Below, piece after piece: positions 4,822-19,616 of a stretch of DNA of 21,711 nucleotides. The notes beneath the pieces are model-generated. The model did no database searches. It saw nothing but the letters and a program-made list of their open reading frames with translations, and was not told where the DNA came from. This DNA is from a virus, in the IMG/VR virus record IMGVR_UViG_3300029319_000589, positions 1-21,711 of that record. One strand, 5' to 3'. Numbering within the stretch: the stretch's first letter is position 1; each line of letters starts with the position of its first letter. The translations under genes were made by a program, and so were the position numbers.

Positions 4822-7800
4822 GTGAAATTTGCTCACATTAGCGATACTCACATTAAGAATTTAAAATATCATTATGAGTATCGAGTAGTTTTTGAACAGT
4901 TGTATGAAAAACTACAAGAAGAAAACGTAGATTATATTGTTCACACTGGAGATGTTGCGCACACAAAGACGCAAATCTCACCAGAGTATGTCGAGCTATG
5001 CGCGCAATTTTTTGAGAATCTTGCGAACATTGCTCCGACGTATGCTATTTTGGGTAACCATGACGGTAACCTAAAAAATAGTAGTCGTCAAGATGCCTTG
5101 ACACCAATCTTTAACGCGTTGGATCACCCAAACCTACACTTACTAAAAGATTCGGGTGAGACAAACATTGACGACAAGTTCTGTCTAAATGTTTTATCAG
5201 TTTTTGATCGTGAAAATTGGATCAAGCCGACTAATTCAGATAAGATCAATATCGCTCTTTATCACGGCTCAATTAGCAACTGCAAGACGGATGTTGGCTG
5301 GGTTATGTTAAATGGCGAAGATACGATGGAGATCTTTGATGGATTTGATTTTGCAATGCTTGGTGATATTCATCGTCGTCAAATTCTTGACGAGGCTGGT
5401 CGTATTTGGTATGCCGGCAGCACAGTACAGCAGAATCATGGAGAAACCAACGACAAGGGTATTCTTATTTGGGATATTCAAACAAAGGACGACTGGGACG
5501 TCGAGCCGATTGTGTTCAAGAATCCAAAGCCGTTCATTACTTTGGAACTCACACCGAAAGGTCGCATGCCCAAGGGAGCGAATGTCCCGGAGGGTGCGAG
5601 ACTCCGTATCGTAAGTAATAATAATTTACCGCTCAATGTAATGAAGCGCGCAATGGACATTGCAAAACACAGATTTAAGCCGGAAGTTGTTACTTTCCTT
5701 AATCGTGCAGCCGGTGAGCGTGGCGATGTCACAGAAATTACTGATAATCTTAAGACAGAAAACTTGCGTGATATCAATATCCAAGAGGAATTGATGGATG
5801 AGTATTTGAAAGAGTATCAAGTAGAGTCGACAACACTAGAAAAAGTCTACGAACTCAACAGAAAATATAAGAAAATGGTTGAAGATGAAAACGATATTTC
5901 TAGAAATGTTAATTGGAAACTGACTAATTTTGAGTTTGATAACTTATTTAATTACGGGGAAGGTAATAATGTTAACTTTGATGAACTCAATGGGATTACA
6001 GGAATCTTTGGCAAAAACTATTCTGGGAAAAGCAGCATTATTGACGCTGTGCTTTGGACTCTTTTTAACACAACCTCGAAAAATGAGCGTAAGAATCTCA
6101 ATGTTATTAACCAGAATAAAGAATTCTGCCGCGGCAAGCTGACGATTGTTGTCGGACATAAAACTTATACAATTGAAAGAAGTGCTGAGAAATATATAAA
6201 GCGCCTAAAAGGCGAAGAAACCCAAGAAGCCAAGACAGATCTAAACTTTGAGGTTTATGACGAGGTACTGGGCGATACGGTATCACTAAATGGATTAAGT
6301 AGAATCCATACAGATGCAATTATTAGAAAGCATTTTGGAGAATGCGAAGACTTTTTGATCTCTTCAATGGCTTCGCAGCATGGCGCGCTATCGTTTATTG
6401 ATGAAGGCTCCACCCGACGTAAAGAAATTATTGCCAAGTTTCTTGATTTGGAGATTTTTGAAAAAAAGTTTAAATTAGCTAAAGATGATAGTACAGATCT
6501 CAAGGGCGCTCTTAGAAGGCTGGAATCGCGTAATTATGATGAAGAGATTATAGAAGCAGCCGATTCTTTAAAAACAAAAAAAATAGAACTTGAAACACAC
6601 AAAGCAGAATGCGAAGAACTAAAAGAAGAAATACAACTAATAACAAAAACCTGCGAAGACCTTCGGAATAGCATTGACGCAATACCAGAAGAAGTAATTA
6701 ATGTTGTTGATACAAAAAGAGACATCAAAAAGAAAAACATACAGATTTTCTCTTTAGAAAGTGAAAACAAGCAACACAATGCCGATCTATCTGTTAAAAG
6801 AGGAATCTCAGAAAAGATAGAAGAATACTTAAACGGCATAAACATAGAGGCTTTATCGGAGCAGCAGCAAGTAATTGAAAATCTGCAGACTAATAAAAAA
6901 GAGACTGCAACAGCACTTGAAGCGCTCATTCAGCAGATAGAAGACATTGAACGGAAAGCAAAATTACTAGATGGCATACCTTGCGGAACAGACTATCCGC
7001 AATGTAAATTTATTCGAGATGCTAATGTTGCTGTAGCAAATCTACAGCACGTGCAAAACGAACAAGAAAGTACCCAGGTGAACCTAAGCACTATAGATAA
7101 AAAAATACAAAGCATGAGGCCAAGCTTTGTTGCAGATCAAATTAGTAAATACGATGCAATTTGCGATAAAAGGCTTTTGACTACAAATGATATTGCTGAT
7201 TTAAATCTGTCTATTGAGAAAAACAACGCTTCAATTGAGAGATTAAAATATGAGCTTAAGGAGCTAGAAGACAAAAGAAATAAATATGAGGAAAATAGAG
7301 AAGCTATTGAAAACTTTGAAGAGTTCACAACTGAACTTGATGCTTGTAATGGTAAACTTGAAAAAAAGCAAAATCAGTATGATGCGTGTCAGGAGCAAAT
7401 GCTTGAGCTTTATAAAGATGTAGGTTCGTTAGAAAAGAACGTAGAAAATATCAAAGAACAAAAACAGGAGTATTTAAATTTACAGGAGGAATTCTCAGCC
7501 TATGATCTTTATATGCGTTGCATGCACTCATCTGGCATTGCTTACGATATTATTAAACGCAAACTTCCAGTCATCAACCAAGAGATTGCGAAAGTTCTAG
7601 CAAACATTGTTGACTTTGAAATCTTCTTTGAAGATTCTGGTAAGAAATTTGATATTTTTATCAAGCATCCTAAACATGAGCCTCGCCCTATCGAGATGGC
7701 TTCCGGTGCAGAAAAAACTATGGGTGCAATGGCAATTAGATTAGCGCTTTTGAGTGTTTCTTCTTTGCCTAAGAGTGATTTATTCATACTAGATGAGCCC

Positions 7801-7971
7801 GGTACTGCCCTAGACGAAGAAAATATGGAAGGTTTTATTCGTATCTTAGAACTAATTAAGGTGTATTTCAAAAACGTTTTGTTGATATCTCATCTTGATT
7901 CACTCAAAGATTGTGTTGACATGCAAATCGTGATTGAAAAGAAATTAGGATATGCAAAGGTTAACCAATAA
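4822..7971 (+). CDS. Single-chain Mre11-Rad50 (SbcD-SbcC; T4 gp47-gp46) fusion
   Basis: This 1049-residue protein joins two repair subunits normally encoded separately. Residues 1-~340 are an Mre11/SbcD metallophosphoesterase: DTH (Asp8, His10), GDV (Asp44), GNHD (Asn79, His80), YHGS (His148) and GDIH (His184). A Rad50/SbcC ATPase begins near 362 with Walker A GKNYSGKSS (397-405). It continues through long coiled coils broken by a Cys pair (Cys721, Cys728, in PCGTDYPQCKF). It ends with the signature ASGAEK (960-965), Walker B FILDEP (988-993) and the H-loop His1024. The complex trims and cuts DNA ends, and in T4 it drives recombination-dependent replication. GTG 4822 has a strong GGAGG (4813-4817). 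The Cys pair is C-x6-C rather than the canonical CxxC zinc hook. Confidence 0.93.
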   Translation: MKFAHISDTHIKNLKYHYEYRVVFEQLYEKLQEENVDYIVHTGDVAHTKTQISPEYVELCAQFFENLANIAPTYAILGNHDGNLKNSSRQDALTPIFNALDHPNLHLLKDSGETNIDDKFCLNVLSVFDRENWIKPTNSDKINIALYHGSISNCKTDVGWVMLNGEDTMEIFDGFDFAMLGDIHRRQILDEAGRIWYAGSTVQQNHGETNDKGILIWDIQTKDDWDVEPIVFKNPKPFITLELTPKGRMPKGANVPEGARLRIVSNNNLPLNVMKRAMDIAKHRFKPEVVTFLNRAAGERGDVTEITDNLKTENLRDINIQEELMDEYLKEYQVESTTLEKVYELNRKYKKMVEDENDISRNVNWKLTNFEFDNLFNYGEGNNVNFDELNGITGIFGKNYSGKSSIIDAVLWTLFNTTSKNERKNLNVINQNKEFCRGKLTIVVGHKTYTIERSAEKYIKRLKGEETQEAKTDLNFEVYDEVLGDTVSLNGLSRIHTDAIIRKHFGECEDFLISSMASQHGALSFIDEGSTRRKEIIAKFLDLEIFEKKFKLAKDDSTDLKGALRRLESRNYDEEIIEAADSLKTKKIELETHKAECEELKEEIQLITKTCEDLRNSIDAIPEEVINVVDTKRDIKKKNIQIFSLESENKQHNADLSVKRGISEKIEEYLNGINIEALSEQQQVIENLQTNKKETATALEALIQQIEDIERKAKLLDGIPCGTDYPQCKFIRDANVAVANLQHVQNEQESTQVNLSTIDKKIQSMRPSFVADQISKYDAICDKRLLTTNDIADLNLSIEKNNASIERLKYELKELEDKRNKYEENREAIENFEEFTTELDACNGKLEKKQNQYDACQEQMLELYKDVGSLEKNVENIKEQKQEYLNLQEEFSAYDLYMRCMHSSGIAYDIIKRKLPVINQEIAKVLANIVDFEIFFEDSGKKFDIFIKHPKHEPRPIEMASGAEKTMGAMAIRLALLSVSSLPKSDLFILDEPGTALDEENMEGFIRILELIKVYFKNVLLISHLDSLKDCVDMQIVIEKKLGYAKVNQ

Positions 7972-9110
7972 TGTCTAACGATAACGATAATAATGAGTTC
8001 GATTTTCTGCCTCCCGCAGAGCCACCCCCAGCGTTTGTGCAGGAAAAGGATAGTTTTCACGAAGAAGTAGAAGCAGAAGATTTTGGAATGGTCGAAGACT
8101 TCGGATTACAGATGGAATACTCTGATGAAGATTTACTCCCTGAGAACACTGCACCTTCTTCACTAAACGTGGGTTTTGTCGGTGTCGGTGGCGGAGGCAA
8201 CAAAATGGCCAACGCATTTATCGAACTTGGATTTAACAAAACATTGCTTGTTAATACAACAGGCAAAGACATTCCAAAGAATGTCGAAGAGGATCACGTT
8301 GTCCTTATTCCCGATTCTGATGGAATTGGTAAAAACACCGAATATGGAAAAGAGGTATTAAGTCAAAATGGTGCAATTATTGAAGATGCTCTCCGCATCA
8401 AACTCGGTAAAGTTGATTGGTTATTCGTCCTTGCTGGCGGTGGTGGCGGTACCGGTAGTTCTGTTACCGCTTTGCATTCTGTCTTTGAGCGTTACATGCG
8501 CTCTGTGCAATCAAGCGGTAAGGTCGTTTACATAGTCTCCTGGCCCACAGCGCAAGAGAATCTTAACCCAACAATTGCCAAAAATGCTTTAACTCTTGTC
8601 AATGATGTTTCAAAACACCCACACATCATTCTCGACAACGAACGTTCCACAAGATTATTACGTGGTAGAATAGGGATGCTAGGAATGTATCCGGTTGCAA
8701 ATACACAGTTTGCAAAGTCATTAGCTCAAGTTTTAAAACTCTCCGATGAGGATTCACCGATCCAATCTTTCGACAGCAAGGATTTGGAAACATGCTTGAG
8801 TAATGATGGCCGAGCCTTCATGGGCTCAACTATGATAAAAGATCCAAATACCGGAAAGCTTGGATCGGTGATCCTTCACAACTGTATGAATCGCTCAGCG
8901 TGCCCTCCACCTAAAGGTAAGGCAGGTGCTGGTTCATTGGTGCTAGTTGTGTCAGAAGAGATGGTAGCTGACCCTAAAGTCAGCAAGAATATTGAGTCGG
9001 CAATCGCTTATGTCGGCGGTCGATGCGAGACACTTTTCTCTGGCGTTTATGTCAGAAAGAATGTGCCCGGCCTGATTGCGATACTAAGTATGAATGGATT
9101 AGCAACATAG
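7971..9110 (+). CDS. Tubulin/FtsZ-family GTPase
   Basis: This 379-residue protein carries tubulin/FtsZ GTP-binding hallmarks in order. The T1 loop is GFVGVGGGGNKMANAF (68-83), and a strand ending TLLVNTTGKD follows. The T4 signature loop is AGGGGGTGSS (155-164). A helix region HIILDNERSTRLL (218-230) resembles the FtsZ nucleotide-contacting segment. The T7 loop is FDSKDLETC, with Asp268 and Asp271 in the D-x-x-D pattern needed for GTP hydrolysis across the filament interface, followed by GRAFMGS as in FtsZ. An acidic, Pro-rich extension (1-65) precedes the domain. The protein stops right after the last strand, so the FtsZ C-terminal FtsA/ZipA-binding peptide is missing. ATG 7971 overlaps the Mre11-Rad50 stop by one base. 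A cytomotive filament role (PhuZ/TubZ-like) is inference. Confidence 0.9.
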   Translation: MSNDNDNNEFDFLPPAEPPPAFVQEKDSFHEEVEAEDFGMVEDFGLQMEYSDEDLLPENTAPSSLNVGFVGVGGGGNKMANAFIELGFNKTLLVNTTGKDIPKNVEEDHVVLIPDSDGIGKNTEYGKEVLSQNGAIIEDALRIKLGKVDWLFVLAGGGGGTGSSVTALHSVFERYMRSVQSSGKVVYIVSWPTAQENLNPTIAKNALTLVNDVSKHPHIILDNERSTRLLRGRIGMLGMYPVANTQFAKSLAQVLKLSDEDSPIQSFDSKDLETCLSNDGRAFMGSTMIKDPNTGKLGSVILHNCMNRSACPPPKGKAGAGSLVLVVSEEMVADPKVSKNIESAIAYVGGRCETLFSGVYVRKNVPGLIAILSMNGLAT

Positions 9111-10521: not shown

Positions 10522-10933
10522 ACTTTTATTGATGCTTTCTTTGACGGCAAATGCAACTGAGCCGGCCAAGTTCACTTTTTTAGAATATAAACAACCGGCA
10601 CCCTTTGAGGGTGTTCTGTTTGATGAATTTTCGATATCAACCATACTATCCGATTACGACATCGCAGCGTACGCATGTCAAATAAGGGTCGATTACGAAT
10701 TGAAGAAATTGGAAGAAAAACATCGATTTGAACTCGAAGGATTAAAGATAGAACATAAGGCCTTAACAGATGAGTATGATTTATTTATAATGCAGAAAGA
10801 CAAAGAGATTGACCTACTGGCCAATGCTCTAAAAAAAACTTCACCCCGGCACAAATGGTTATATTTTGCTGGTGGGATCCTAGTTGGTACTGCGGCATCA
10901 TATGGCGCATATAAGGCATTCAATGAAAGGTAA
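10511..10933 (+). CDS. Exported coiled-coil protein with C-terminal membrane span (140 aa)
   Basis: The gene overlaps the preceding one by 11 bases. Residues 1-15 (MFLKLLLMLSLTANA) are a typical Sec signal peptide with an AxA-type cleavage site. There is no lipobox Cys, so it is not an outer-membrane lipoprotein. The mature part starts TEPAKFTFLEYKQPAPFEGV, continues through a helical heptad-like region (residues 59-104, ELKKLEEKHRFELEGLKIEH), and ends with a hydrophobic span (WLYFAGGILVGTAASYGAY, 116-134) and a short basic tail. This predicts a periplasmic coiled coil anchored to the inner membrane by its C-terminus. The gene order and overlap recall spanin pairs, but the domain order is unlike a classical o-spanin. 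Confidence 0.6.
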   Translation: MFLKLLLMLSLTANATEPAKFTFLEYKQPAPFEGVLFDEFSISTILSDYDIAAYACQIRVDYELKKLEEKHRFELEGLKIEHKALTDEYDLFIMQKDKEIDLLANALKKTSPRHKWLYFAGGILVGTAASYGAYKAFNER

Positions 10934-11309
10934 AGACATAAATAAAATTGCTGCAATAGAAAAAGCCATATCTGAAAAGTATGGGGAAGACACAGTTGCA
11001 AATCCCCGTGCCAACTGGGATGAAGAAAAAGAAAAAGAATACCTCTCTCAAATGAAAGACTTTTATAAAAAAATAGATAAGAATGAGCAGTGGCAAAAGA
11101 AAGTTGATATAAATGGCATAAAGGTATCAAAAAAACTACTTAATAGAGAATCTTTAGGATGTTGTCCTGTCTGCGAATCCTTTTCAAAGATATCTATGGA
11201 CGATGTTTGTCTCGCTAAATTTGATTGCTGCAGTAAATGCTATTATCAATATGTCGAAGGCAGAGAGGAAAGATGGTTAAAAGGATGGAGACCAAATGAA
11301 AATAAGTAA
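10923..11309 (+). CDS. Zn-ribbon-type small protein (128 aa)
   Basis: I chose ATG 10923 (MKGKDINKIAAIEKAISEKY), which overlaps the previous stop by 11 bases; the in-frame GTG or ATG choices further upstream would lie deep in the previous gene. The N-terminal half is helical and charged, with a conserved-looking NPRANWDEEKEKEYL. The C-terminal half has Cys pairs, CCPVC near residue 81 and CCSKC near residue 102, spaced for one zinc ribbon, followed by YQYVEGREERWLKGWRP. I recall similar small zinc proteins in T4-like marine phages but cannot assign a function. It overlaps the next gene by 14 bases. Confidence 0.65.
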   Translation: MKGKDINKIAAIEKAISEKYGEDTVANPRANWDEEKEKEYLSQMKDFYKKIDKNEQWQKKVDINGIKVSKKLLNRESLGCCPVCESFSKISMDDVCLAKFDCCSKCYYQYVEGREERWLKGWRPNENK

Positions 11310-11610
11310 AAAGCAACTTAAAGAAATCATCGGAGAAGAACTGGAGAAAGTTAGGGAAAATGTAAGGCCTGATGTTTTGCGCACCCAGAAGATGATGGAC
11401 ACAAGAGGAATCACAAAGTTGGTTGCTGCAAAAATTAATACGTGGCAAGAATTACAAGGGTTTCTTGCGGGTATGCTACAAAATGTACAAGTCAAAGACA
11501 ACCAAAAAACAATGGTCCTAAGAAAGCTTTTAAGACAACTCCAAGGCCAGGGCGGTGGAAGTGCCCCAGGCACGGACGCGCCAGCACCAGAACAAGGAGC
11601 AGCAGAATAA
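11296..11610 (+). CDS. Tagged protein of unknown function (candidate internal head protein), 104 aa
   Basis: The N-terminus MKISKKQLKEIIGEELEKV is nearly identical to the tag on the 3191 and 3751 proteins, while the codons differ at many synonymous positions. After the tag comes a helical body (NVRPDVLRTQKMMDTRGITK, WQELQGFLAGMLQNV) and a low-complexity Gly/Pro/Ala tail (GQGGGSAPGTDAPAPEQGAA). There is no enzymatic motif. The start overlaps the zinc-ribbon gene by 14 bases and its stop overlaps the next ATG (TAATG). Confidence 0.72.
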   Translation: MKISKKQLKEIIGEELEKVRENVRPDVLRTQKMMDTRGITKLVAAKINTWQELQGFLAGMLQNVQVKDNQKTMVLRKLLRQLQGQGGGSAPGTDAPAPEQGAAE

Positions 11611-12164
11611 TGGCAACAGTATATGAAATAGTTCAAGGACTCTCGCAAGCCGCGGCAAACGCATACGACGGCGCCCACAACGACGATGGTGAACTAGTAG
11701 AGGTGGGTTTACGACGCGAGGACGGAGATCCAATCCTTGATAAAAGAGTTATGGACGGGTTTAATGTTAGATTCACCGGCAACATGATGTGCCTAACATA
11801 CCAATCAGAAATACAACTAAAAGAAGTTTATGCTAAGGGATTTGAGAACGAAATCAACCAGAGACTGGCAGACATTACCTCTTTCCTCAAGAAAGAGTAT
11901 AGAAAAATTAATGGAGAGTCGGTTCAACTTACCTTAGAGGGAGAGACTGACATCAGCGCAGAGAGTGTATCTCGCCATCGTTCTTGGGTAATGGCGCGCC
12001 AACACTATAAGATTGGCGGTATAGATAAAGAACAGAGAATTGACGAAGAGTCCAAAGATCGATTGGATAGTGGCTGGAAGTCGTTTCTTGAATTAGGCGG
12101 CTGGGATGGCTCTGGCGGAAAGCGACCAAAGAACGATAAGAGACCAAAGAATTCGGGGGAATAA
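11610..12164 (+). CDS. Unknown protein of the packaging cluster (184 aa)
   Basis: ATG 11610 (MATVYEIVQGLSQAAANAYD) overlaps the previous stop by one base and is preferred over upstream in-frame starts inside the tagged gene. I do not recognise a named family. Visible segments are GLRREDGDPILDKRVMDGFN (about 34-53), a strand-like VRFTGNMMCLTYQSEIQL, a helical ADITSFLKKEYRKING, and RHRSWVMARQHYKIGG. The C-terminus is polar and basic (GGKRPKNDKRPKNSGE). It sits two genes before the large terminase, where T4 has its small terminase gp16, but nothing in the sequence supports a small terminase over another head or neck protein. Confidence 0.65.
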   Translation: MATVYEIVQGLSQAAANAYDGAHNDDGELVEVGLRREDGDPILDKRVMDGFNVRFTGNMMCLTYQSEIQLKEVYAKGFENEINQRLADITSFLKKEYRKINGESVQLTLEGETDISAESVSRHRSWVMARQHYKIGGIDKEQRIDEESKDRLDSGWKSFLELGGWDGSGGKRPKNDKRPKNSGE

Positions 12165-12167
12165 TTG

Positions 12168-12617
12168 ATGAATATTTCTCGCTCCGATTTATATCGAATT
12201 ATTCTTGAAGAATATGCGAAAGAAGAAGGGATTGGTTTATCCGAAAGCAAAGCGGACGAACTACTCAGATATATAAAAGGTGGCCCAAAGCCGGATTGGA
12301 TAGATGACGAAAGAGAGGCCCCAGATCCTCCAGAGGTACCGGCAGCTAAAGAGCCTGCTGGTGAAACAATTCCAATGCCAAGAGGTGAGGAATCGCTTGT
12401 AGATCAAATTAGTGCATTGGTGCAAGGTATGGATCCAGAGCAAGTTTCAGAGCTTTTTCAAGCAGTATTTGCGCAGATTCCTGGTGTTGAAATGGGCCCC
12501 GCTGAAGAGGAGCCAGAGACTCTTTATTCTCCTGGAGCAGAAGGCCGGCCACAAGTTGGCTTTAAACTTGAAGAGCTGATGGATCTTATCCGGGAAGTAT
12601 TAGCAGAAGATGTATGA
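12168..12617 (+). CDS. Tagged acidic protein before the terminase (149 aa)
   Basis: ATG 12168 is preferred to the TTG at 12165. The N-terminus MNISRSDLYRIILEEYAKEE follows the tag pattern (basic or polar start, an Ile/Leu helix, then EE). The body is acidic and Pro-rich (DDEREAPDPPEVPAAKEPAG). A central helical unit, GMDPEQVSELFQAVFAQIPG, follows. The end, FKLEELMDLIREVLAEDV, repeats the tag-like helix at the C-terminus and includes an LAE site. It overlaps the terminase start by four bases (ATGA). The position fits a small terminase subunit, but the composition looks more like an internal or core protein. The assignment is open. Confidence 0.68.
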   Translation: MNISRSDLYRIILEEYAKEEGIGLSESKADELLRYIKGGPKPDWIDDEREAPDPPEVPAAKEPAGETIPMPRGEESLVDQISALVQGMDPEQVSELFQAVFAQIPGVEMGPAEEEPETLYSPGAEGRPQVGFKLEELMDLIREVLAEDV

Positions 12618-14197
12618 GCTTTCAACTAGACAAGAAACAGAGAGTCAAAGAAATATTGAGGTGCGGTAAAGACCCATCTTACTTTCTTAATAATTATGCC
12701 CGTATATCTCACCCGATGCACGGGTTGATTCTTTTTGACACATATGGGTTCCAAGATGATCTTTTGAAAGATTTCAATGATTATCGGTTTAATGTTATTT
12801 TAAAAGCACGCCAACTTGGAATATCAACGATTACTGCTGGATATATTGTTTGGATGATGCTTTTTCATCGCGACAAGGCCATCCTTGTTATGGCAACAAA
12901 GTTTGCAACAGCAGGAAACTTGGTTAAAAAAGTCAAAAATATCATGCGTAACATTCCCGATTGGCTAAAGATTGCAACAATTACAGTTGACAATAGGACT
13001 TCATTTGAATTATCCAATGGCTCATCTATCAAGGCTGCCTCCACATCAGGGGATGCCGGCCGCTCAGAGGCACTTTCGCTTTTGGTTCTTGATGAGGCAG
13101 CTCACATTGAAGGCCTTGAAGAATTGTGGACAGGTCTATATCCCACACTGTCAACTGGTGGTCGCTGCATTGCGCTGTCTACACCAAACGGTGTTGGTAA
13201 CTGGTTCCATAAGACTTGCACGGATGCTGACAGCGGCATTAATAACTTTAATTTAACCACGCTACCTTGGGACGTTCATCCTGACAGGGGAGAGGAGTGG
13301 TACAAAAAAGAAACTAAGAACATGTCAAAGCGTCAAATTGCACAGGAGCTTGAATGTAATTTCAATACATCTGGAGAAACTGTAATCGATCCTGAATGTA
13401 TGGAGTGGTTGTTATCTAATATATGTGAACCAAAGCACAGAACAGCTTTTGATAGAAATTTTTGGATTTGGGAGGAGTTTGATCCAACTTGCAATTACCT
13501 AATGGTAGCTGATGTGGCCCGTGGTGACGGAGCAGACTATTCTACTTTTCATATTATAAAATTAGAAACTCTAGAAGTTGTGGGAGAATACCAAGGAAAG
13601 CCAACATTAGATATGTTTGCCAATCTGCTAAATCAGGTTGGTAGAGAATTTGGTGGCTGTATGCTTGTCGTAGAGAACAACAATGTTGGATACTCTGTGC
13701 TTGATAAATTAATAGAGTTCGGATACCCAAACCTATATCATTCAGTTAAATCAACTCATGAATACATAGAGCAGCATCAAGCAGAAATGCGCAATAGCGC
13801 CGTCCCAGGTTTTACAACGTCAATGAAGACGCGTCCTCTTATAGTAGCGAAATTAGAAGAGTTTATAAGAAACAAACTAATTAAGGTATATTCTACTCGG
13901 ACAATCAATGAGTTGAAAACATTTATTTGGAGAAACGGAAAACCACAAGCAATGAAAGGCTATCATGATGATTTGATTATGGCGTTAGCTATAGCGTGCT
14001 GGGTCAGAGATACAGCACTCCAAGCAAATGCTAGAGAACTTAATTATCAAAAAGCTTTTATAGGGGCGATTAGAACATCAAAAACAACCCTAAACACGAG
14101 AATTTCAGGGCAACATGGCTACAAAAAAGATAACGCATTTGATAAAATGACAGAAACTAAAAAAATGTACGAACAGTATAAGTGGATTATAAAGTGA
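12614..14197 (+). CDS. Large terminase subunit (T4 gp17-like)
   Basis: This 527-residue protein has the ATPase and nuclease parts of a DNA-packaging motor. The Walker A-like motif is KARQLGIST (64-72), Walker B is LLVLDE (156-161) and the coupling motif is ALSTPNG (187-193). The RNase H-like nuclease supplies Asp300 (VADVARG), Glu354 (VVENN) and Asp452/Asp453 (GYHDDLIMALA). Terminase cuts concatemeric phage DNA and pumps it through the portal. The usual Walker A lysine position holds Ile70, as in other terminases where a Lys or Arg just upstream may substitute. ATG 12614 overlaps the previous gene, and the portal gene follows nine bases after the stop. The tail sheath and tube genes that separate gp17 and gp20 in T4 are absent here. 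Confidence 0.95.
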   Translation: MSFQLDKKQRVKEILRCGKDPSYFLNNYARISHPMHGLILFDTYGFQDDLLKDFNDYRFNVILKARQLGISTITAGYIVWMMLFHRDKAILVMATKFATAGNLVKKVKNIMRNIPDWLKIATITVDNRTSFELSNGSSIKAASTSGDAGRSEALSLLVLDEAAHIEGLEELWTGLYPTLSTGGRCIALSTPNGVGNWFHKTCTDADSGINNFNLTTLPWDVHPDRGEEWYKKETKNMSKRQIAQELECNFNTSGETVIDPECMEWLLSNICEPKHRTAFDRNFWIWEEFDPTCNYLMVADVARGDGADYSTFHIIKLETLEVVGEYQGKPTLDMFANLLNQVGREFGGCMLVVENNNVGYSVLDKLIEFGYPNLYHSVKSTHEYIEQHQAEMRNSAVPGFTTSMKTRPLIVAKLEEFIRNKLIKVYSTRTINELKTFIWRNGKPQAMKGYHDDLIMALAIACWVRDTALQANARELNYQKAFIGAIRTSKTTLNTRISGQHGYKKDNAFDKMTETKKMYEQYKWIIK

Positions 14198-14205
14198 GAA
14201 ACTAA

Positions 14206-16191
14206 ATGGCAGGCAACGACAGAAACCCAGCAAATCAAGAATCAAGATTATTTAAGGCCTTAACAAGACTTTTTTCTGGCCCAATTGTAAACTATCGATC
14301 ACAAACCGGTAGGCGTATTAGAAGACAACATCTCGATAAATTTGCATCTAGATTTAGAACAACGTCCGGCCAGCAGTTTAAAAAGACCCTTCATAATCCG
14401 CTAGATAACTTAGCAGCCAATGCAATTGCAAATCAAAGAAGAGGTGAGCGATACGTAGACTTTGATCAGATGGAGTACACTCCAGAGATAGCATCCACAA
14501 TTGATATATATGCTGATGAGATGACCACTTATTCTGATTTAAGGCCGATGCTCAATATTAAATGTCCTAATGAAGAAATTAAAGCAGTACTTTCTATTTT
14601 GTATGAAAACATCTTAAACGTTCAATACAACATGTTTGGTTGGGCGAGAACAATGTGCAAGTATGGAGACTTTTTCCTATACTTGGATGTAGATGAAAAA
14701 TATGGAGTCAAGTCAGTTATCTCCTTGCCAGTCGGAGAAATCGAAAGATTAGAGGGACAAGACTCAACTAATCCAAACTATCTTCAATATCAGTGGAATT
14801 CTGCCGGCATGACTTTTGAGAATTGGCAGATTGCCCACTTTCGTATTTTGGGTAATGATAAGTATGCGCCGTATGGTACTTCTATTCTTGAGCCGGCCCG
14901 CCGCATATGGCGTCAGCTTACACTTATGGAAGATGCGATGATGGCATATCGTGTTATCCGCTCCTCTGAGCGTCGTGTTTTTAAGATTGATGTTGGAGCA
15001 ATTCCCCCCCAAGAAGTTGAACAGTATATGGAAAAGATTGTATCGCAACTGAAAAGACATTCTGTTGTAGATCCGGATAGTGGAAGGATTGATTTAAGAT
15101 ACAACCCTATGTCGATCGAAGAAGATTATTTCATTCCAGTAAGACAGGGTTCCGCTACAGCAATAGAGTCACTAGCTGGTGCACAAAACATTACTGCGAT
15201 TGATGACATCAAATATCTCCGCGATAAATTATTCTCTGCGTTAAAGATTCCCCAAGCTTATCTTACGATGGGCGAGGGTGCCGAAGAAGATAAGACTACG
15301 CTAGCACAGAAAGACATTCGGTTTGCGAGAACAATACAAAGACTACAAAGAGTTATTATTTCGGAGCTTACTAAAATTGGGATTATCCATCTTTATACTC
15401 TTGGTTTCCGAGGTGATGATTTGTTGGCGTTTGAGTTGGCGTTAAACAATCCGTCGAAGATTGCCGAGCTTCAAGAACTTGAGCACTGGAAGCAAAAATT
15501 TGATATCGCAGCTTCTGCTACCGAAGGATATTTTTCTCGCAGATGGGTTGCAGAAAGAGTATTTGGAATGTCTCACGAAGAGTTTATGCGTAATCAGCGT
15601 GAAATGTATTACGATCGTAAACATGATGCATCACTTCAGCAAGTGGCAGAAGCGGCCGCAGCAGGTGAGACTGCCGGCGCCCTCGGAGGCGATCTGGGTG
15701 GAGACTTGGGCGGTGATCTTGGTGGCGATCTTGGGGGCGATCTTGGCGGTGATCTGGGTGGTCCTGCAGAAATGCCTGCCGGTGATGCTGGTGGTGATGA
15801 GGGTGGAGGAGAAGATTCAGCCCTGCTCGCAGCACCTCCTGGCTCACGTAACGCACCAAGACTTACGCCGGGAGCAAAAGGTAAAAAATACCACCCAGTT
15901 AAAGTTGACAAAAGGCAATCCGGCGCACGCACTCGATCATACGCCTCGAAACATTCAGCCGAGAAAAGTAGCGCAACAATAAGAAATGTTATCCCTGGAT
16001 ATAGTGATTTAAGGTCAATCACAAGCGCAGATGGTATGTCGGCAGGTATTTATGAACAAGAGCAACCTACTTATAGTTTAGAGGAAGGCTCTGAAGAAGA
16101 GAAGATTTTCTCTATTAACGAATCAGTAAGAAGTCTGATTCTTGGCTTAGAGACTAAAACGGAGCAAGAAAGTGAAAGTGAAGCACAATAA
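14206..16191 (+). CDS. Portal protein (T4 gp20-like)
   Basis: This 661-residue protein directly follows the terminase gene. It matches the T4-type portal in features such as MEYTPEIASTIDIYADEMTT, WAHFRILG-type segments (WQIAHFRILGNDKYAPYGTS), and the clip/crown region with IEEDYFIPVRQG, IKYLRDKLFSALKIPQAYL and EEDKTTLAQKDIRFARTIQR. Twelve subunits would form the ring through which DNA enters and leaves. Residues 493-516 are six perfect LGGD units, followed by another Gly/Asp-rich tract, in a part of the protein that lies after the conserved core. The C-terminal 100 residues (Ser/Glu-rich, ending ETKTEQESESEAQ) look disordered. The 3' end overlaps the next gene by 20 bases. Confidence 0.93.
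   Translation: MAGNDRNPANQESRLFKALTRLFSGPIVNYRSQTGRRIRRQHLDKFASRFRTTSGQQFKKTLHNPLDNLAANAIANQRRGERYVDFDQMEYTPEIASTIDIYADEMTTYSDLRPMLNIKCPNEEIKAVLSILYENILNVQYNMFGWARTMCKYGDFFLYLDVDEKYGVKSVISLPVGEIERLEGQDSTNPNYLQYQWNSAGMTFENWQIAHFRILGNDKYAPYGTSILEPARRIWRQLTLMEDAMMAYRVIRSSERRVFKIDVGAIPPQEVEQYMEKIVSQLKRHSVVDPDSGRIDLRYNPMSIEEDYFIPVRQGSATAIESLAGAQNITAIDDIKYLRDKLFSALKIPQAYLTMGEGAEEDKTTLAQKDIRFARTIQRLQRVIISELTKIGIIHLYTLGFRGDDLLAFELALNNPSKIAELQELEHWKQKFDIAASATEGYFSRRWVAERVFGMSHEEFMRNQREMYYDRKHDASLQQVAEAAAAGETAGALGGDLGGDLGGDLGGDLGGDLGGDLGGPAEMPAGDAGGDEGGGEDSALLAAPPGSRNAPRLTPGAKGKKYHPVKVDKRQSGARTRSYASKHSAEKSSATIRNVIPGYSDLRSITSADGMSAGIYEQEQPTYSLEEGSEEEKIFSINESVRSLILGLETKTEQESESEAQ
15682..15753 (+). repeat. 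Six tandem 12-bp units coding LGGD in the portal gene
   Basis: Six consecutive units encode Leu-Gly-Gly-Asp. The Gly codons vary between GGA, GGC, GGG and GGT, and the Leu codons between CTC, CTG, TTG and CTT. The repeat is therefore exact at the protein level but not at the DNA level. Confidence 0.9.
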
Positions 16192-17908: not shown

Positions 17909-19006
17909 ATGAGTAGAAATCAGAAATTAATAGAGAAATTTCTTGTCAAGGAATTTAAAAAATTTCCTCATGCAGATTTGCTTGAGGAAGGAATTTTAGA
18001 TCGTATGGGCGCCCGAGTTGCCGGCGCTTTTTCAAAAGGGCTCTCTGGAGACGAAAGCCGCTCTATTGCAAAAAAGGTGCAACGCATAATTAACACCCAT
18101 AGAGTTGAGATGGAATCCGACTTTGCAAAACTAGACATCACGGACACGCCTGCAGTTGAGCAAGTCTTGGATGCAATGCGAAAAATGGAAAACGCAGCCA
18201 AGCAGTATCTTGGTGGAGAAAAGGCACGCTCTGGAGGCTATGTTACAAAACAGGGCGATGCGGCGCCACCAATAGATACAGATAACGATGGCAAACCAGA
18301 TGCCCAAGATACTGATGGTGATGGAAAGCCAGAGGTTTTTGACACCGATGGCGACGGCCAGATTGATGCGCAAGACACCAATAACGATGGTAAGCCAGAT
18401 GCAGGTGGCTCAACAGTGAATGTTTTCAAGGGAAAAGGTGGAAAAGGTTTGCAAAGCACATTAGATAAGCTTAAGCTTGATCCTGCTGTCCGCAACGCAG
18501 TGCTTAAAAGTGTTGCAGCGCAGCTAAAGTCACAAGGCGTAAATGTGCTTGAAGAAGAAGATTTTGAAGAAATGGCAAATGCACGCCAAGCTAGACGCCC
18601 ACGTCAACCACGACGTCAAAATCGAGCGCCGGGTATCGAAGACATGCTCGGTGGTCCCGAGAGCGTAGAAGCAGATAAGCAGGCAGCAGCGATTGGCGAC
18701 AAGGCTAAAAACGTTACTCCTACAATGCCCGTCGGATCGAAGCCTCCTGTTAGAAAACCAAATCAAGCAAAATCAGGTGGCCCTACTATAACTTTAAGTG
18801 GCAAAGATGGAATCCAATCTGCACTAAACAAAGCAGGGATAAAAGGAACTCAACAAAGCCAAATAGTAAAAGCCATACAAGCTTGGGCCAAGTCTTCAAA
18901 TTTGGAAATTAACGAAAGTCAGCTTTTGAAAGATTTGAGCGAAGAGCTTTTAGTGGAGAGTAGATTTGATCGATGGCGTAAAATTGCAGGTTTATTAAGG
19001 AGTTAA
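17909..19006 (+). CDS. Putative prohead core/scaffold protein with Ca-binding-type repeats (365 aa)
   Basis: The protein lies immediately before the prohead protease. The N-terminus (SRNQKLIEKFLVKEFKKFPH, then LLEEGILDRMGARVAG) is helical. Residues 123-166 are four 11-residue DTDxDGxPDxQ-type repeats, the pattern of thrombospondin-3/EF-loop calcium sites. Two related ~45-residue helical units follow (178-222 and 299-343), separated by a basic, disordered linker (RQARRPRQPRRQNRAPG). The C-terminus has ELLVES followed by RFDRWRKIAGLLRS. LVE, LEE and similar sites would be cleavable by a gp21-type protease. A core or scaffold role is inferred from position and composition; calcium binding is inferred from the repeats. 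Confidence 0.7.
   Translation: MSRNQKLIEKFLVKEFKKFPHADLLEEGILDRMGARVAGAFSKGLSGDESRSIAKKVQRIINTHRVEMESDFAKLDITDTPAVEQVLDAMRKMENAAKQYLGGEKARSGGYVTKQGDAAPPIDTDNDGKPDAQDTDGDGKPEVFDTDGDGQIDAQDTNNDGKPDAGGSTVNVFKGKGGKGLQSTLDKLKLDPAVRNAVLKSVAAQLKSQGVNVLEEEDFEEMANARQARRPRQPRRQNRAPGIEDMLGGPESVEADKQAAAIGDKAKNVTPTMPVGSKPPVRKPNQAKSGGPTITLSGKDGIQSALNKAGIKGTQQSQIVKAIQAWAKSSNLEINESQLLKDLSEELLVESRFDRWRKIAGLLRS
18275..18406 (+). repeat. Four 33-bp units coding calcium-loop (DxDxDG) repeats
   Basis: Four in-frame 11-codon units follow without gaps: DTDNDGKPDAQ, DTDGDGKPEVF, DTDGDGQIDAQ, DTNNDGKPDAG. Codon choice differs between the units, so the array is conserved at the protein level. Confidence 0.9.
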
Positions 19007-19010
19007 TGTG

Positions 19011-19616
19011 ATGTCTAAGGTTCTTTTAAGAGAGTATTACGAATTATGTGAGGGCGGCGTTTGCCAAGACCTTTTAACTGAAGAAGAGAAAAGATTTGTT
19101 GCAAACGGTGGTATGATGCTTACTGGCAAACTTCAAGAGGGTGGAGTAGTGAACGGCAACGGTAGAGTATACCCACCACAAGTATTGACAAGAGAAGTAA
19201 AGAATTATCAAAAACTTGTAAAAGAGAGACGAGCACTTGGCGAGCTGGATCACCCAGATGACTCAGTGATTAACTTAAAAAATGCTTCACATATGGTTAC
19301 TCACATATGGATGGAAGGCAACACAGTAATGGGTAAAGTCAAAGTACTAAACACACCGTCAGGAAAGATTCTACAAGAGCTTGTAAATGATGGAGTAAAG
19401 CTGGGTATCTCCTCTCGCGGAATGGGCTCCGTAAGCGAAAACAATGGCCAAACAATAGTTGAAGATGACTTCCAATTAATTTGTTTTGACTTTGTTTCTG
19501 AGCCTTCTACTCCAAATGCTTTTATGATGAAAGAAGCTAAAGATTTAACAATGCCGAATATTATAACAAAAGCAGATCGGATTAACAGACTAATAAATGA
19601 GGTTTTAGATGAATAA
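19011..19616 (+). CDS. Prohead core protease (T4 gp21-like)
   Basis: ATG 19011 is favoured (AAGGAG at 18997-19002, eight bases upstream) over GTG 19008. The 201-residue product matches T4 gp21 along most of its length: VVNGNGRVYPPQVLTREVKN, then LGELDHP with the catalytic His81, a middle strand VMGKVKVLNTPSGK, and GISSRGMGS with the nucleophile at Ser134/Ser135. A late FDFVSEPSTPNAFM follows. gp21 proteases act inside the prohead, cutting scaffold, internal proteins and capsid protein after (I/L)xE and finally themselves. The C-terminal tail (KADRINRLINEVLDE) resembles the tag helices found on other proteins here and contains LDE, a possible self-cleavage site. It overlaps the next gene by eight bases. 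Confidence 0.93.
   Translation: MSKVLLREYYELCEGGVCQDLLTEEEKRFVANGGMMLTGKLQEGGVVNGNGRVYPPQVLTREVKNYQKLVKERRALGELDHPDDSVINLKNASHMVTHIWMEGNTVMGKVKVLNTPSGKILQELVNDGVKLGISSRGMGSVSENNGQTIVEDDFQLICFDFVSEPSTPNAFMMKEAKDLTMPNIITKADRINRLINEVLDE

Follow-up and report, generated by a model that had tools for sequence, protein, structure and literature searches.

Phage-encoded tubulins are regarded as a hallmark of the nucleus-forming Chimalliviridae and are otherwise known from a handful of large phages (PMC11835377, PMC9123017). In the Chimalliviridae (phiKZ and its relatives), the tubulin is PhuZ. Capsids travel on PhuZ filaments for packaging (PMC7950403), and PhuZ is non-essential in phiKZ (PMC10299810). 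Polymerisation of PhuZ depends critically on its acidic part, which lies at the C-terminus. TubZ is known from a phage partition system (reviewed in PMC7950403), and in Bacillus TubZ an adaptor is recruited by the C-terminal tail. Bacillus phage G, a 498 kb phage, encodes gp138, which is annotated as FtsZ-like (JN638751). Tubulins in marine T4-type clades are not described in the reviews and surveys that we covered, whose coverage was incomplete.

We analysed a 21,711-nucleotide stretch of viral DNA (hereafter the window; IMG/VR record IMGVR_UViG_3300029319_000589), which is part of the genome of a marine T4-type phage; we call the group to which this phage belongs clade A. A sequence-only reading had picked out in it a gene for a tubulin-superfamily GTPase, and here we compare this gene and its surroundings with the systems described above.

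A tubulin-superfamily protein with an acidic N-terminal tail

The gene (7971..9110, plus strand, ATG to TAG) encodes an A-type phage tubulin of 379 amino acids plus stop. Pfam Tubulin (PF00091) matched the protein with an E value of 2.3e-9 and 38.2 bits, compared with a gathering score of 33. On the same strand we located the T1 loop GVGGGGN (residues 71–77; 8181..8201), the T4 tubulin signature AGGGGGTGSS (residues 155–164; 8433..8462), the guanine-contact motif DNE of T6, which is of the TubZ/tubulin type (residues 222–224; 8634..8642), a nucleotide contact of the TubZ/tubulin/CetZ type at the start of helix H7 (Asn244; 8700..8702), and the T7 catalytic loop FDSKD with D268 and D271 (residues 267–271; 8769..8783). 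All 15 nucleotide-binding and catalytic positions that we checked were invariant among 91 distinct complete homologues, indicating that the T1, T4, and T7 motifs are not chance matches.

An AlphaFold model, built from an input alignment of 24 phage sequences, had a mean pLDDT of 82 and a pTM of 0.79 and showed a complete two-domain tubulin fold with H7 at residues 236–257. A Foldseek search of the PDB with this model returned 925 matches at E values up to 1e-3, led by CetZ (3zid, 8e-20), TubZ (4ei7, 8e-19), and FtsZ (many entries at about 1e-18). The structural fit to these chains was moderate, with TM scores of 0.6–0.7 by query length. Among predicted viral proteins, the best match was an uncultured Caudovirales 'FtsZ' at 16% identity, and PhuZ proteins ranked lower. 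The gene is thus near certain to be a real member of the tubulin/FtsZ superfamily. This agrees with the sequence-only reading, which had named the T1 and T4 loops and the T7 aspartate pair: both the profile and the fold comparison placed the protein inside the superfamily, and the invariance across the 91 homologues pointed the same way. Given the intact fold and the invariant residues, the protein would be expected to bind and hydrolyse GTP and to polymerise.

The first 64 residues (7971..8162, plus strand) form an acidic, proline-containing extension that is predicted to be disordered, with pLDDT below 50 over most of its length. The same reading had also singled out this extension, which contains 19 Asp or Glu residues, one Lys or Arg, and seven prolines, and the absence of an FtsZ C-terminal peptide; the chain indeed stops at its last beta strand (residues 368–377), and residues 368–379 contain no such peptide. 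Within the extension, residues 23–62 equalled the folded core in conservation (mean major-residue frequency 0.939 vs 0.940). Relatives described below carry a comparable tail, which in B-type proteins is shorter (DIPTLDIEDYDPELNEEQE) and is present in the L258 tubulin too. An acidic tail at the N-terminus is an unusual arrangement in the tubulin superfamily. As the acidic or adaptor-recruiting tails of PhuZ and TubZ are C-terminal, the N-terminal tail may have taken over a binding role here.

The gene lies beside packaging and head genes of the T4 type

Immediately upstream of the tubulin gene is an SbcD-SbcC fusion of the T4 gp47-gp46 type (4822..7971, plus strand), an upstream neighbour that is kept in clade A and in a second clade, B. 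The tubulin start overlaps the stop of the fusion by one base (TAATG). In both clades, SbcD and SbcC form a single fused polypeptide of about 1050 residues.

Downstream on the plus strand, the interval between the tubulin and the terminase contains two small genes that are conserved in both clades. One (10884..11309) is 58% identical within clade A and 38% identical between A and B; the other (11610..12164), whose product starts with MATVYEIV, lies right before the terminase region, and its ORF opens at 11442 with a likely start at 11610. These are followed on the same strand by the large terminase subunit (TerL, gp17 type; 12614..14197), a T4-type portal protein (gp20; 14206..16191; Portal_T4, E 2e-77), and a prohead protease (gp21; 19008..19616; Peptidase_S77, E 1e-30). 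The matches for TerL, Portal_T4, and Peptidase_S77 bear out the earlier remark that this is a T4-type context, unusual for a tubulin.

Several features of the surrounding genes deserve mention in their own right. In the portal protein, the long C-terminal extension past the Portal_T4 domain contains a GGDLGGDLGGDL low-complexity repeat. The protein encoded between portal and gp21 (17909–19006) includes a run of DTDxDGxPD-type repeats resembling calcium-binding thrombospondin type 3 repeats, which is odd for a head-core region. An unusual combination is seen at 1603–2178, where an FKBP-type prolyl isomerase carries a C-terminal segment with matches to the C-terminal part of phage endonuclease VII and Arc-like repressor families. 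Five window proteins (ORFs 3191, 3748, 9503, 11296, and 12165) share the start motif M-K-I-[ST]-K-x-x-L-K-x-I-I-x-E-E. The same start was also found in three ORFs of G001 and six of G011, and in none in the immuto, Mel-JY01, and phiKZ regions checked. As the motif recalls the T4 capsid-targeting sequences removed by gp21, these proteins may be internal head proteins.

A T4 late promoter ahead of the tubulin gene was considered and rejected: TATAAATA was no commoner than expected by chance, with none upstream of the gene. Sigma-70-like sites were no commoner than in shuffles.

Distribution in two marine clades

A scan of IMG/VR found 167 stretches that encode relatives of the window protein, and a second query found 125; the two sets overlap, and the contigs reach 195,690 bases. 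The loci gathered for clade A contain 91 distinct complete tubulin ORFs. A viral scan seeded with the phage G tubulin added two further kinds, L258 and L248. The L258 tubulin (5683–6822) is 56% identical to that of the window, has a lysine-rich start ahead of its acidic stretch, and is flanked by the gene for the major capsid protein (gp23) on one side and by that for a head-tail connector on the other. The L248 tubulin is only 26% identical; downstream of its gene come homologues of window genes 10884 and 11610, TerL, and the portal gene. Its type, clade B, was represented by 89 stretches on contigs of up to 190,528 bases.

In a TerL tree, A and B were sister clades (support 100/100), and the Flavobacterium phage immuto group lay outside them. 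The nearest cultured relatives are immuto and Microcystis phage Mel-JY01, at 43–44% TerL identity. PF00091 found no match in the whole genomes of these two phages, and a tubulin was likewise missing from all 80 immuto-type loci (757 kb). Gene 193 of immuto, which like the window tubulin has a one-base overlap with the gene before it, was tested as a possible divergent tubulin and rejected.

We then estimated the presence of the gene in clade A from 80 loci fetched by TerL and chosen without reference to tubulin. A tubulin was present in all 11 of the TerL-anchored contigs with at least 7 kb of upstream sequence and in 22 of the 23 with at least 5 kb; the sole contig without one is possibly truncated. 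Clades A and B share the order SbcCD, tubulin, small genes, TerL, portal, and the small genes flanking the tubulin differ among relatives. In clade A, the distance between tubulin and SbcCD ranges from 0 to about 1.9 kb; in clade B, it commonly measures 1.3 to 4 kb. Because this distance varies among relatives, the one-base overlap in the window is without special meaning. The overlap with a repair gene, formerly offered as a functional hint, is not conserved.

Strong constraint within clades and divergence between them

Median identities of the tubulin were 88% within clade A and 90% within clade B, but only 28% between the two. The corresponding values were 82%, 78%, and 61% for TerL, 73%, 72%, and 57% for the portal protein, and 58%, 75%, and 50% for SbcCD. 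Of the genes for which all three values were available, the tubulin thus ranked highest in conservation inside each clade and lowest across the two. Its pN/pS was 0.12 in clade A and 0.08 in clade B, compared with 0.15–0.17 for TerL, indicating purifying selection stronger than that on TerL. In a genome-wide comparison of A with B, the tubulin (26%) was among the lowest of the shared ORFs. The L258 tubulin shared 55% identity with A and 29% with B, whereas the L258 connector, sheath, and other non-capsid structural genes were about equally distant from both clades (24–39%).

The simplest reading of these identities, together with the contrast between the L258 tubulin and its structural genes, is that A-type tubulins have moved between phage lineages and that the tubulin of one sister clade was probably replaced in place. 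The alternative is a single burst of divergence in A and B orthologues. We retain it because the A profile scores B-type proteins best outside its own group and because both types carry an acidic N-terminal stretch.

The protein probably belongs on the TubZ side of the superfamily

The sequence-only reading had judged the protein to resemble FtsZ more than tubulin, a view that was not supported. The FtsZ equivalog NCBIfam TIGR00065 gave 46 bits, far below its cut-off of 295.2, and a TubZ profile scored 92 bits compared with 51 bits for an FtsZ profile. The T6 motif of the window protein reads DNER, and H7 begins with Asn. This pair, DN in T6 and Asn in H7, was found in every TubZ, phage G, and CetZ row that we compared, whereas bacterial FtsZ rows have PN or NN in T6; two archaeal FtsZ rows also have DN and Asn.

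A maximum-likelihood tree split FtsZ and CetZ from TubZ, phage G, the A-type, and the B-type (support 98/96), and the split between FtsZ and the TubZ side recurred in a tree that included PhuZ and omitted CetZ (95/89). The A-type formed its own long branch on the TubZ side, outside plasmid TubZ. The trees drew on benign plasmid TubZ only, to the exclusion of the anthrax plasmid and botulinum phage c-st. A haloarchaeal plasmid 'FtsZ', tried as a stand-in for CetZ, grouped with FtsZ. In constraint tests, grouping A with CetZ was rejected (p 0.034) and grouping A with FtsZ was nearly rejected (p 0.057); neither A joined with both FtsZ and CetZ (p 0.26) nor A with B (p 0.31) was rejected. With moderate support, then, the window protein appears to be a TubZ-side phage tubulin.

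Compared with FtsZ, the protein shares the tubulin/FtsZ fold and the T1, T4, and T7 motifs but differs from bacterial FtsZ in T6, lacks the C-terminal peptide, and has no close cellular copy that we could find. Across 84,980 genomes of bacteria and archaea, a scan with clade A patterns gave no close relative, and a second bacterial and archaeal scan gave a single 15 kb contig, from a Flavobacteriaceae MAG, with the phage gene order including TerL. An FtsZ origin was rejected as the best reading on the equivalog score, the tree, and the T6 and H7 residues. These scans and the strong purifying selection support the earlier suggestion that the gene represents a phage lineage of its own and is no copy of a host FtsZ. 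CetZ is the best PDB match in both sequence and fold (3zid), near full length, and shares DN in T6 and Asn in H7. The sister-group relationship hinted at by that match was rejected on the constraint test, and the window gene has no archaeal context.

Plasmid TubZ of the Bacillota TubZRC systems lies on the same side of the tree and has the same types of T6, H7, and T7 residues. It differs in having a C-terminal helix and tail, which the modelled window protein lacks, carrying an N-terminal tail instead. B-type tubulins match plasmid TubZ directly, whereas tblastn gave no plasmid match for the window protein. B-type tubulins (L248, 2470–3600) and the TubZ of pBM400 (L377) have an altered T4 loop, GGSGGG instead of GGTG[ST]G.

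Among 50,697 named phages, tblastn detected no close relative. The nearest, and the sole named phage with a match, was Bacillus phage G, whose gp138 was 25% identical (E 8e-5; hhalign E 2e-11). It shares with the window protein the tubulin fold, DNE in T6, Asn in H7, and FD..D in T7, but it has no N-terminal extension, has a C-terminal one, and groups with the plasmid TubZ of pBM400. PhuZ is likewise a phage tubulin, possibly with a similar job in late infection. A relationship to it was rejected because profile similarity was not detectable (hhalign E about 0.09), and the window protein lacks the PhuZ C-terminal domain and acidic knuckle. PHROG 4733 and Pfam TubZ_C_2 both matched PhuZ of phiKZ, and neither matched the window protein.

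Phage nucleus and host

We searched eight large contigs, which may be incomplete, for markers of a phage nucleus. The phiKZ chimallin, used as a tblastn query, found no chimallin, although a remote one could escape such a search, and an RNA polymerase beta profile found no multi-subunit RNA polymerase; phiKZ served as the positive control in both cases. Phages of clades A and B thus apparently lack a phage nucleus.

A Flavobacteriaceae host had been hinted at by the MAG contig and by the nearest cultured phage. Shine-Dalgarno-like sites, however, preceded 64–66% of the long ATG-started ORFs in clades A and B, compared with 6% in the immuto region, which disfavours a host in the Bacteroidota and that family in particular. 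The host is more probably some marine bacterium whose translation initiation is of the Shine-Dalgarno type. L287 (PAAD01000063.1) is a clade A phage contig inside a Flavobacteriaceae MAG, and the translation-start signals of clade A suggest that it was misbinned. A picocyanobacterial host was rejected, as no psbA was found in the eight large contigs.

Possible roles of the tubulin

The explanation that we favour, to which we give about an even chance of being right, is that this is a phage-specific TubZ-side tubulin whose GTP-driven filaments bring order to late infection in the absence of a nucleus, with the N-terminal tail as a binding arm. In such a scheme, the protein would bind and hydrolyse GTP and assemble into filaments during infection, as the fold and the invariant T1, T4, T6, and T7 elements suggest. 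At a late stage, the filaments would bring together capsids, portal and packaging complexes, and replicated DNA in the open cytoplasm, a PhuZ-like job minus the phage nucleus. The disordered acidic tail would serve as a cargo- or subunit-binding arm, standing in for the helix and acidic tail that TubZ and PhuZ have at the C-terminus and that are missing here. The late organising role is suggested by the conserved linkage to packaging and head genes and by the known traffic of capsids on PhuZ, although a gene can also come to lie among packaging genes through operon history, irrespective of its function. Since PhuZ is dispensable in phiKZ and the tubulin is strictly conserved in the clades studied here, its role may also differ from that of PhuZ.

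Many phages inhibit FtsZ, and the tubulin might instead attack host division by binding or co-polymerising with FtsZ, or by occupying its partners, so that septation stops and the cell enlarges. It has the same fold and subunit-interface class as FtsZ, and its acidic tail could act as a mimic of a peptide that binds FtsZ or a partner. Such an attack is nevertheless distinctly unlikely, as the sequence is TubZ-side and lacks the T6 and H7 residues and the C-terminal peptide of bacterial FtsZ, and simple inhibition needs no intact catalytic residues. Host FtsZ is moreover conserved, which leaves the presence of two tubulin types, 28% identical, in sister clades unexplained.

Polymerisation itself is in question if the protein is a tubulin-fold GTPase that acts as a head switch or assembly factor or is packaged in the virion. 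We regard this as unlikely but worth some weight: the L258 gene lies inside a head and neck module, neighbouring window proteins have an N-terminal motif reminiscent of T4 capsid-targeting sequences, and the fit to PDB chains is only moderate. The tubulin itself, however, has no such motif. In the tubulin superfamily, the T7 aspartates complete the active site of the neighbouring subunit, and their invariance here is best explained by polymerisation. A TubZRC-type partition motor that keeps a pseudolysogenic, plasmid-like phage genome seems very improbable, even though plasmid TubZ is among the closest non-phage relatives, with the direct plasmid matches being those of the B-type. No TubR-like HTH gene was found among the flanking genes tested by Pfam, the locus contains only short two-copy imperfect repeats and no iterated tubC/tubS-like ones, and the model shows no C-terminal helix or tail for binding TubR. 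T4-type phages are also typically lytic.

Returning to the late-infection filament, the evidence can tentatively be taken a step further, in a form that we consider somewhat doubtful: lytic T4-type phages would have a cytoskeleton without a nucleus, built from an N-tailed tubulin under stronger constraint than the terminase, with its slot refilled by the other tubulin type in the sister clade. A refilled slot beside the packaging genes would suggest that these phages need some tubulin there.

A tubulin is thus a constant and highly constrained part of two widespread marine T4-type clades, whose contigs reach just under 200 kb. This makes it testable what a phage needs a tubulin for, if not for centring a nucleus. 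Because so much is known about T4-type infection, a tubulin found there could reveal whether the traffic of capsids and genomes is a general problem of large phages. The phages of clades A and B may be another kind of virus, the second, that uses a cytoskeleton to organise the cell it infects.
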